This document shows positions 25,782 to 37,164 of a DNA stretch of 64,000 nucleotides, in pieces. Position numbers and translations under genes: made by a program. Origin of the DNA: an uncultured Lachnospiraceae bacterium (GTDB taxonomy: Bacteria > Bacillota > Clostridia > Lachnospirales > Lachnospiraceae); contig CAMKQH010000021.1 in NCBI GenBank assembly GCA_946414885.1, positions 1 through 64,000 of the forward strand, in the 5' to 3' direction. The notes under the pieces are model-generated. The model saw only the letters and a list, made by a program, of their open reading frames with translations. It had not been told where the DNA came from and made no database searches. Position 1 is the stretch's first letter. Each line of letters starts with the position of its first letter.

Positions 25782-27269
25782 ATGGAAGTGTTGTATTACA
25801 GTACCAGAAGCAACGGACAGCCGATCAAGGCTTCCCAGGCAATCTTAAAGGGCCTCTCTGATGACGGCGGACTCTTCGTGCCGGACCACGTGCCTGCATT
25901 GGACAAGAGCTTAAAAGAGCTTGCGGGCATGAGCTATCAGCAGGTTGCCTATGAGGTGATGAAGCTGTTCCTCACGGATTTTACGGAGGAAGAACTGAAA
26001 AATTGCATCGCAAAGGCATATGATGAAAAATTTGACACTGACGTGATCGCACCCATGGCAGAAGCGGAGGGAGCTTATTTCTTAGAGTTGTTCCATGGCC
26101 CCACCATCGCGTTTAAGGACATGGCACTCTCTATCTTACCGCACCTTCTGATCACCTCCGCAAGAAAGAATCAGATCAAGAATGAAATTGTCATTTTGAC
26201 CGCAACCTCCGGAGATACTGGTAAGGCAGCATTGGCAGGTTTTGCAAACGTAGAAGGTACCAGAATCATCGTATTCTATCCGAAGAACGGCGTGAGCCCC
26301 ATCCAGGAAAAGCAAATGGTGACCCAGAAGGGCGCTAACACGCTGGTTGTCGGCATTCACGGTAACTTTGATGATGCACAGACCGGAGTGAAAAAGATTT
26401 TCTCTGATAAGGCATTGGCGAAGGAAATGGATGAGAAGGGCTTCCAGTTCTCCTCTGCAAATTCCATTAACGTGGGCCGCCTGGTGCCTCAGGTATGTTA
26501 TTACGTATATGCGTACGCAAGACTTCTTGCTGAGGGACGCATAGCAGAGGGCGAAAAGATTAACATTGTCGTGCCCACTGGTAATTTTGGAAACATTTTG
26601 GCCGCATTTTATGCGAAAAACATGGGTCTTCCCATCGATAAGCTGATCTGTGCGTCCAATGAGAATAAGGTTCTCTTTGATTTCTTCAGCACTGGCGTAT
26701 ATGACAGAAACAGAGAATTTATGCTGACCAGTTCGCCTTCCATGGATATCCTGATCTCCAGCAACTTAGAGCGCCTGATCTACCGTATTGCTGGCAATGA
26801 TGCGAAGAAGAATCAAGAACTGATGGCAGCACTCAGCGGTCAGGGAAAGTATGTGATCGACGATGCAATGAAGGCTGGTCTTGCTGACTTTTACGGCAAT
26901 TACGCAAGCGAGCAGGAGACCGCGGCGATCATCAAGAAGATTTACGAGGATTGCGGTTACGTGATCGACACGCATACCGCCGTTGCCGCAGCCGTTTACG
27001 AGAAATATCAGGCTGAGACCAAGGACCAGACCAAGACGGTCATTGCCTCCACGGCAAGCCCCTTCAAGTTTACCAGAAGTGTCATGAACGCCATTGATGC
27101 AAAGTATGACTCCATGACCGACTTTGAACTTGTAGACGAGCTTTCCAAGCTCGCCAACGTCAAGGTTCCCAATGCCATCGAGGAGATCCGCACGGCTCCC
27201 GTTCTTCATGACAAGCAGTGTGATTCCGACCAGATGCAGAATGTTGTTCGCGAGTTTCTTGGTTTATAA
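25782..27269 (+). CDS. thrC: threonine synthase
   Basis: EVLYYSTRSNGQPIKASQAILKGLSDDGGLFVP; FHGPTIAFKDMALSILPHLL; TATSGDTGKAALAGF. Confidence 0.95.
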   Translation: MEVLYYSTRSNGQPIKASQAILKGLSDDGGLFVPDHVPALDKSLKELAGMSYQQVAYEVMKLFLTDFTEEELKNCIAKAYDEKFDTDVIAPMAEAEGAYFLELFHGPTIAFKDMALSILPHLLITSARKNQIKNEIVILTATSGDTGKAALAGFANVEGTRIIVFYPKNGVSPIQEKQMVTQKGANTLVVGIHGNFDDAQTGVKKIFSDKALAKEMDEKGFQFSSANSINVGRLVPQVCYYVYAYARLLAEGRIAEGEKINIVVPTGNFGNILAAFYAKNMGLPIDKLICASNENKVLFDFFSTGVYDRNREFMLTSSPSMDILISSNLERLIYRIAGNDAKKNQELMAALSGQGKYVIDDAMKAGLADFYGNYASEQETAAIIKKIYEDCGYVIDTHTAVAAAVYEKYQAETKDQTKTVIASTASPFKFTRSVMNAIDAKYDSMTDFELVDELSKLANVKVPNAIEEIRTAPVLHDKQCDSDQMQNVVREFLGL

Positions 27270-27273
27270 TATT

Positions 27274-27544
27274 AACTTCCCATTCCGGTTATAAGTGAAC
27301 CAAAGCCTCCGTGCCCGCCGGATATCATCTTCTTGAAACGGCACGGACTGCACTAAGCTCAACAACCGTCTGAATGGAGTGGAAAATCTCGAGAACAACT
27401 CGGAGCTGACGCTCCTCAGACAATTCTCGAGATTTTCCATTCAGCCGGCTGCTTTGCTAAGTGCAGCCGGCTAATTGTTTCAAGAAGATGATATCAGGCG
27501 GGCACTGGTTCTTTGAAGAAATTGTGCAACCGGAATGGGAAGTT
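27274..27544. repeat. ~271-bp imperfect palindrome / MITE-like or structured element
   Basis: 17-bp perfect terminal inverted repeats (27274-27290 / 27528-27544), 9-bp (27311-27319 / 27497-27505), 19-bp (27321-27339 / 27477-27495) and 16-bp (27380-27395 / 27424-27439) perfect inverted segments in nested order. Confidence 0.93.
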
Positions 27545-27632
27545 TTGATACCAGCGTGAAGAAAAGTAGACAGAGCAGATAATGAAAGAAAGAAGTAACA
27601 GAAAAAATTGGAGGACGAAAGTAGAGGGTAAG

Positions 27633-28298
27633 ATGACGGCGAAGGAGATGCTTCAGAAGGTAGACCATACGCAGTTAAAGGCATTTGCGACTTGGGAAGA
27701 CATTCAGAAATTGTGTGAAGAGGCGATTGCGTACCATACGGCGAGCGTATGCATTCCGCCGGCGTATATTAAGCGCGTGCATGACGCCTATGGGGAGAAG
27801 ATCAATATTTGTACGGTAGTTGGTTTTCCTTTGGGTTACAGCGTAACGGAAGCTAAGGTTGCGGAAGTGGAGAAGGCTCTGAAGGATGGCTGTAACGAGA
27901 TCGACATGGTGATCAACGTAAGCGACGTAAAGAACGGGGATTATGATAAGGTGGAAGAAGAAATCCGCACCATGAAAAAGGCATGCGGGGAACATATCCT
28001 AAAGGTGATCGTTGAGACCTGTTATCTGACGACGGAAGAGAAGATCGCCATGTGTAAGGCAGTGACAAACGCAGGAGCAGATTATATCAAGACGTCCACG
28101 GGCTTTGGAACGGGCGGCGCAACCATCGAGGACGTGAAGCTCTTTAAGGAGAATATTGGCCCGAACGTGAAAATTAAGGCGGCAGGCGGCGTGTCTACCA
28201 TCGATGACCTGAAAGCATTTATTGAACTTGGATGCGATCGGATAGGTACCTCTAGGGCAGTAGGTTTGTTAAAGGGCGAGATGACGGAAGGCTATTGA
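27633..28298 (+). CDS. deoC: deoxyribose-phosphate aldolase
   Basis: VDHTQLKAFATWEDIQKLCEEA; VIVETCYLTTEEK; DYIKTSTGFGTGGAT; KAAGGVSTIDDL. Track start 27582 is upstream. Confidence 0.95.
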   Translation: MTAKEMLQKVDHTQLKAFATWEDIQKLCEEAIAYHTASVCIPPAYIKRVHDAYGEKINICTVVGFPLGYSVTEAKVAEVEKALKDGCNEIDMVINVSDVKNGDYDKVEEEIRTMKKACGEHILKVIVETCYLTTEEKIAMCKAVTNAGADYIKTSTGFGTGGATIEDVKLFKENIGPNVKIKAAGGVSTIDDLKAFIELGCDRIGTSRAVGLLKGEMTEGY

Positions 28299-36921: not shown

Positions 36922-36927
36922 ATAACT

Positions 36928-37127
36928 AACCTGAAATGTTCGATAAAGCTTGTTAGTTTTGAACCTACATTTACTTTCATGGGATTCTTATATTGCCAAG
37001 CGGCTGTCAAGCCCTCACTCCCAGGCATGCCTGGATCAGAGGATTGGAAGGGAAGGCAAAAACTTGGTTGCGGTTACCCACCTGGCGCGAGCTAGGAGTC
37101 AAAAAACAAGACGCGGCATTTCGGGGG
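36928..37127 (+). ncRNA. ssrS: 6S RNA
   Basis: 5' CCTGAAATGTTCG pairs with 3' GCGGCATTTCGGGG, matching the 6S closing stem (E. coli CTGAGATGTTCG...GCGGCATCTCGGAG); internal hairpin CCAGGCATGCCTGG; ~200 nt, own promoter, intergenic. Confidence 0.87.
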
Positions 37128-37164
37128 CAAAAAAAGCATCCGATGGATGCGGTACAAAAGATAA

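Follow-up and report, generated by a model that had tools for sequence, protein, structure and literature searches.

Between thrC and deoC, in the 64,000 nucleotides of Lachnospiraceae DNA analysed here (the window), the whole intergenic region forms a near-palindrome of about 271 bp (27274-27544), raising the question of whether it is a mobile element, a structured RNA, a terminator or a local inverted duplication. We addressed this by dissecting the palindrome, collecting its relatives within and beyond the host genome, and comparing orthologous copies between species.

A composite palindrome between thrC and deoC

Profile matches confirmed both neighbours, each on the + strand: thrC, encoding threonine synthase, lies upstream (25782-27269; TIGR00260, 239.9 bits) and deoC, encoding deoxyribose-phosphate aldolase, lies downstream (27582-28298; TIGR00126). 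The deoC profile match begins at residue 23; an ATG at 27633 is a likelier start than that of the ORF tool at 27582, which is probably 51 bp too early, and relatives begin ATGACGGCAAAGG at the corresponding ATG. The fold of the whole strand reached -152.3 kcal/mol, versus -73.9 (sd 5.0) in dinucleotide shuffles (z = -15.7), and 0 of 200 shuffles folded as well. The palindrome is genuine and lies well outside what chance would produce.

An earlier reading of the letters alone (the sequence-only reading) had described nested inverted pairs around a short central hairpin, and we recovered them at 27274-27290/27528-27544 (17 bp, 100%), 27301-27339/27477-27515 (39 nt, 87%) and 27377-27395/27424-27442, with the hairpin, GGAGCTGACGCTCC, at 27402-27415. 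It was also right that the element holds no coding ORF.

The palindrome is a composite of three parts, all given here on the + strand: outermost a terminator-like stem, then the paired arms of the element, and a conserved cap. The outer left stem, AACTTCCCATTCCGGTT (27274-27290), apparently one half of a terminator-like hairpin older than the element, pairs perfectly with the outer right stem, AACCGGAATGGGAAGTT (27528-27544), directly 3' of which stands TTTTGAT. Inside these, the left arm of the element, CGTGCCCGCCGGATATCATCTTCTTGA (27310-27336; family consensus CGTGCCTGYCGG-variable-TCTTGG over 70 copies), is complementary to the right arm, TCAAGAAGATGATATCAGGCGGGCACT (27480-27506), after which TACGTTACTG comes next in many copies. 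Orthologues differ in the sequence of the left arm and largely retain its complementarity. The cap opens with its left base, AACGGCACGGACTGCACTAAGCTC (27337-27360), most of whose 24 bases are invariant across 11 copies in the genome, and closes with its right base, GCTAAGTGCAGCCGGCTAATTGTT (27456-27479); the two pair except for an A.A mismatch, an unpaired AATT and two bulges, one of A/T and one of A. Between them stands the distal hairpin of the cap in its long form (27361-27455), with a stem at 27380-27395/27424-27439 and the tip GGAGC-TGAC-GCTCC (27402-27415). The 10-bp hairpin noticed earlier in the right half (27443-27472, arms 27443-27452 and 27463-27472) is present, but it belongs to this copy and is no conserved feature of the family: aligned copies lack it, the same bases there being engaged with the left base of the cap.

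A repeat family in Lachnospiraceae

BLAST of the element against the window's own genome (G000; the G-numbered genomes are drafts, many of them metagenomic) revealed about 11 further loci, all matching the central 27337-27479 (143 bp) only. Almost every one of these copies sits at the apex of a hairpin with complementary arms whose sequence is unrelated among copies; one copy (L014) is truncated. The cap base, AACGGCWCGGACNNNACTAAGCTC / GCTAAGTRCNGCCGGCTAATTGTT, is nearly invariant and the fold is much alike in every full copy, while the distal hairpin varies, giving cap lengths of 77, 118-120, 141-144 and 171-183. Several of the copies sit at contig ends.

At some loci the hairpins have been elaborated further. 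Arms have grown into tandem repeats with units of about 23-26 bp (L009, L015, L018, L240) or about 58 bp (L085), partly complementary between the arms, and contigs often end there. One locus carries two caps facing each other about 255 bp apart (L011, G000:C4:127898-128453), a pair retained in G089 and G011. Elsewhere a cap plus arm is partially duplicated in tandem (L271 and L273 in G071, L254 in G018).

A covariance model of the cap base (R1) detected compact relatives in 30 of the 138 genomes of the genus on which it was run; it missed the long-cap copies of the window's genome, with their long insert, which were therefore taken from BLAST. The compact homologue has 28 pairs, a 3-way junction and a GNRA mini-hairpin, its canonical strand reading arm-UCC-GAAAAACGYCGGUACUUAGCGAGG..CGAGCUUAGUACCGCUACGUUUUUC-GGA-GC-GNRA-GC-arm. 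Double changes occur at 20 of the 28 pairs of the consensus structure, and 153 of the 154 mini-hairpin loops detected are GNRA, in a search that fixed the outer loop positions, 1 as G and 4 as A, and left the purine at position 3 free. The compact and long-cap families are homologous, as indicated by their common ACTTAGC..GCTTAGT core and by cross-detection with the first model. Four compact copies of the window's genome (L336, L342, L345, L348) are enclosed by a longer inverted repeat, GGTCACGGGGACRTGTCTACTGACACA, and sequences that match this repeat in part are scattered widely across G000 and its relatives.

With a covariance model of the compact cap, hits were obtained in 45 of the 294 genomes that represented the order, and all 45 belong to the window's own family, across 21 genera. 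Copy numbers ranged from 1 in one genome through 14 in the window's own and 42 in a two-contig genome to 60, the highest. A pattern scan returned at least 120 stretches, most of them filed under Lachnospiraceae, Butyrivibrio or Acetatifactor and a few under other or less specific names; these record titles are the basis for assigning the family to Lachnospiraceae. One compact copy (L137) belongs to a cultured strain, Butyrivibrio sp. CB08. There were no matches to the family in viral contigs, plasmids or phages, Rfam scans, run on both the window region and compact loci, gave no relevant match, and the literature searched for Lachnospiraceae MITEs or palindromes held nothing relevant. Apparently, this is a large family of hairpin-shaped repeats, multi-copy in a major gut-bacterial family and undescribed in Rfam and in the papers searched.

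Synteny of the copies and evolution of arms and cap

The gap between thrC and deoC is filled by the element in G000 and in its two nearest relatives, G089 and G011. Of the empty sites that the sequence-only reading had proposed to look for, G078 offers a candidate: here thrC and deoC are separated by a lone terminator-like hairpin, CACTTCCCATGTC-GACACA-GACATGGGAAGTTTGATTT (read by eye). Its stem shares the start of the outer 17-bp arms of the window copy, so the window element appears to be inserted in that loop. The sequence-only reading had suggested comparing the outer ends with the terminal inverted repeats (TIRs) of transposases; these ends, AACTTCCCATTCCGG, are not TIRs and match this host hairpin standing alone. 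Other terminator-like hairpins occupy the gap in G138, G071, G018 and G118. The G011 copy has its cap inverted, and its arms have co-changed from GATATCATC/GATGATATC to GACGTGCTC/GAGCACGTC. A second site, L342, carries the element in G000 and G089, a window-type copy in G076, and plain terminators in G138, G018 and G071; G011 was rejected as a clean empty site here, its gap holding a different, 49-bp repeat-like sequence.

Eight genomes supplied 70 complete copies of the window type, which we sorted into 28 locus groups, 19 of which hold at least two loci, nearly all at orthologous positions in different genomes. For 45 of 58 caps the orthologue was the nearest neighbour. Over 25 orthologous pairs, which are drawn from about a dozen locus groups and are not independent, mean identity was 0.959 in the cap, 0.902 in coding sequence, 0.787 at third codon positions, 0.847 in the 25-bp arms and 0.722 in DNA 30-75 bp outside; the cap exceeded third codon positions in all 25. 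Separately, about 3.2 kb around L249 (G011:C24) and L259 (G076:C21) is 97-99% identical in species otherwise about 80% alike, with cap lengths of 174 versus 119 in the same hairpin, which may reflect recent transfer or contamination.

Of 54 comparisons between orthologues, 15 showed the cap flipped with respect to its flanks, and orthologous arms showed 22 compensated double changes, 42 pair losses and 40 pair gains. The compensatory changes are real; arms diverging without them are what the sequence-only reading would have counted against a structured RNA. Template switching is reported to homogenise inverted-repeat arms and invert spacers (PMC8604942, PMC8794818), and it most likely explains both the arms and the cap inversions. 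The same process would tend to erase the bulges of the cap, and their preservation therefore suggests selection.

Origin, rival explanations and known systems

Selection on one RNA strand predicts more G.U than A.C mismatches. The ratio of G.U to A.C was 194:210 in the arms of compact copies and 49:50 in those of the window type, and 28:24 and 6:4 in the caps, whereas the same count on 26 sequences of 6S RNA (rough alignment, 12 usable pairs) gave 16 versus 5. A 6S RNA gene lies in the window itself (36925-37131, +; RF00013, 60.6 bits); tRNA acceptor stems were set aside as a wobble control for being too few. With neighbours assigned from ORFs, the orientation of compact copies to the adjacent genes was random (++34, --30, +-17, -+17). 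Equal G.U and A.C together with random orientation point to selection or mutation on DNA structure and not on one RNA strand. In the transcript sense, G.U was mildly above A.C, at 118:94 in compact copies (p = 0.11) and 35 versus 19 in co-directional window-type copies (counted by hand), again with ORF-based neighbours. Transcripts may therefore be affected, though only weakly, and the structure chiefly concerns DNA.

These counts weigh on the idea of a large structured RNA, raised by the sequence-only reading, in which a 3' UTR element or independent small RNA would happen to be repeated. The conserved consensus structure with its double changes, the GNRA loops, a tandem G.A-like CGAGG/CGAGC apex and the mild G.U excess speak for it; the mismatch balance against the 6S RNA control, the random gene orientation, a cap that inverts between orthologues with its conservation intact, and a promoter signal at the window copy not above chance speak against it, and we consider it quite improbable. 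Slightly less so, though still unlikely, is a role for the host in place of ordinary terminators, either ending transcription in both directions or protecting mRNA ends. Such a role would fit the plain terminator hairpins of element-free species in the same gaps (thrC-deoC, L342) and the position of the G000 copies shortly after stop codons. However, a scan for U-tracts gave no pattern above chance (the outer stem is followed by TTTTGAT), L010, L011, L014 and L016 of G000 lie 3' of an intact separate terminator, and compact copies are equally frequent between divergent and convergent genes. A local inverted duplication peculiar to thrC-deoC, to which a single-copy result would have pointed, can practically be dismissed: the outer 17-bp arms are indeed locus-specific, but the copies in the genome and the family refute it.

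Evidence for mobility came from a compact subfamily of another genome. The compact element of G162 spans 194 bp and carries the TIR GTAACAGTTCAGCC, and four of six complete copies are flanked by target duplications of about 8 bp, 7-8 of 8 positions matching (read by eye: CCCTCRAA, ATTTACAR, RGTGGCAT, GTGTTACR). Three half elements in the same genome (L289, L292, L295) stop in or near the cap loop and continue into unrelated DNA, one of them beside a tRNA promoter. Like MITEs, the family is short, non-coding, multi-copy and dispersed. We sought an autonomous partner through the TIR pattern and through the Pfam families Y1_Tnp and IS66, and found no TIR pair at IS spacing in G162, no Y1_Tnp in the G000 draft assembly and no IS66 transposase in those of G000, G162 and G390. 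Neither the window copy nor its subfamily has a clean, recognisable TIR or target duplication, in line with the earlier remark that no clear duplication was visible. The proposal of a non-autonomous MITE or palindromic element thus holds as far as a repeated palindromic family, with related subfamilies bearing TIRs and duplications; the signature of conserved ends plus a matching transposase does not hold at the window, where the centre is conserved instead. For the window copy, we infer a mobile, MITE-like origin from the TIRs and duplications of the G162 subfamily.

Could the family be a plain selfish MITE with no host function, whose caps look alike through re-insertion at the same spot or exchange between species? 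Besides the TIRs and 8-bp duplications, recent bursts with identical caps in G399, cap types that differ at one locus between species (L232/L257/L265/L286) and flanks as similar as the cap at some loci (L235/L244, L253/L272), hinting at exchange, are what it would predict. Yet caps are near-identical in most orthologous pairs while the DNA 30-75 bp outside is far more diverged, and paralogues within a genome differ by about 6-20%, so that re-insertion would not restore the locus-specific version. We regard such a family as possible but rather doubtful.

The account that we favour, and hold to be moderately probable, is a Lachnospiraceae family of hairpin-capped palindromic repeats of MITE-like origin, inherited in place, with the cap selected as a DNA structure. 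A copy would have inserted into the terminator-like hairpin behind thrC, within its loop, before the split from the two nearest relatives, as the one relative with a lone hairpin suggests, and would since then have been passed on in place. Its arms would have been re-matched at the DNA level, most likely via replication template switching between them, with the cap sometimes inverted. The cap, whose bulged hairpin follows a fixed design, would be under purifying selection as a DNA structure in either orientation, and the extruded hairpin would most likely be recognised by a putative trans-acting DNA-binding or DNA-processing protein. Against this account stand the failure of the Y1_Tnp search (G000) and the IS66 search (G000, G162, G390) to reveal a partner, the GNRA rule of the compact mini-hairpin, which is an RNA hallmark, the mild G.U excess in transcript sense, the lack of clean TIRs or duplications in the window subfamily, and a cap constraint unusually strong for a plain MITE. 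A bolder version, in which dozens of dispersed loci across Lachnospiraceae carry an orientation-indifferent hairpin cap, more conserved than coding third positions and read in extruded form by a putative host or mobile protein and borne on arms that renew themselves by template switching, is offered only tentatively.

Two consequences extend beyond this locus. The family is a natural experiment in palindrome evolution: compensatory changes arise here without G.U bias, so covariation alone is no proof of RNA structure. In addition, that the cap is so strongly conserved whichever way round it lies points to a putative reader of DNA hairpins.

Set against known systems, the element is best read as a palindrome of the ERIC/MITE kind whose cap is under unusual constraint. 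We assign it to no named family, given a window copy with no recognisable TIR or duplication and searches (TIR pattern, Y1_Tnp, IS66) that yielded no partner transposase. ERIC sequences are palindromic in form and occur in length variants. They are regarded as MITEs and are intergenic repeats with tens of copies per genome or more (PMC10969869). The Lachnospiraceae repeats are likewise palindromic and intergenic and reach similar copy numbers, but they belong to another host group, having been found solely in Lachnospiraceae-type genomes, and combine locus-variable arms with conservation of the central cap only. The G162 subfamily, IS66-like in its TIR start and 8-bp duplication, resembles MITEs with TIRs and target duplications in GTAACAGTTCAGCC and in its approximate 8-bp duplications; it differs in that no IS66 transposase was detected in its genome and its conserved centre is common to subfamilies with unrelated TIRs. 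REPs are 20-40 bp long with a GTAG or CGTC tag at one end (PMC3733652). Our element shares with REP, BIME and REPIN sequences the form of an extragenic palindrome, some compact G000 copies even lying within outer repeats (GGTCACGGGGACRTGTCTACTGACACA), but it is far longer than a REP and the REP/RAYT pairing finds no counterpart in its own genome, where Y1_Tnp was not detected. Homogenised arms and inverted spacers also link it to the template-switch reports (PMC8604942, PMC8794818), which are not about a dispersed family, whereas here the process would act on many copies and the bulged cap is preserved.
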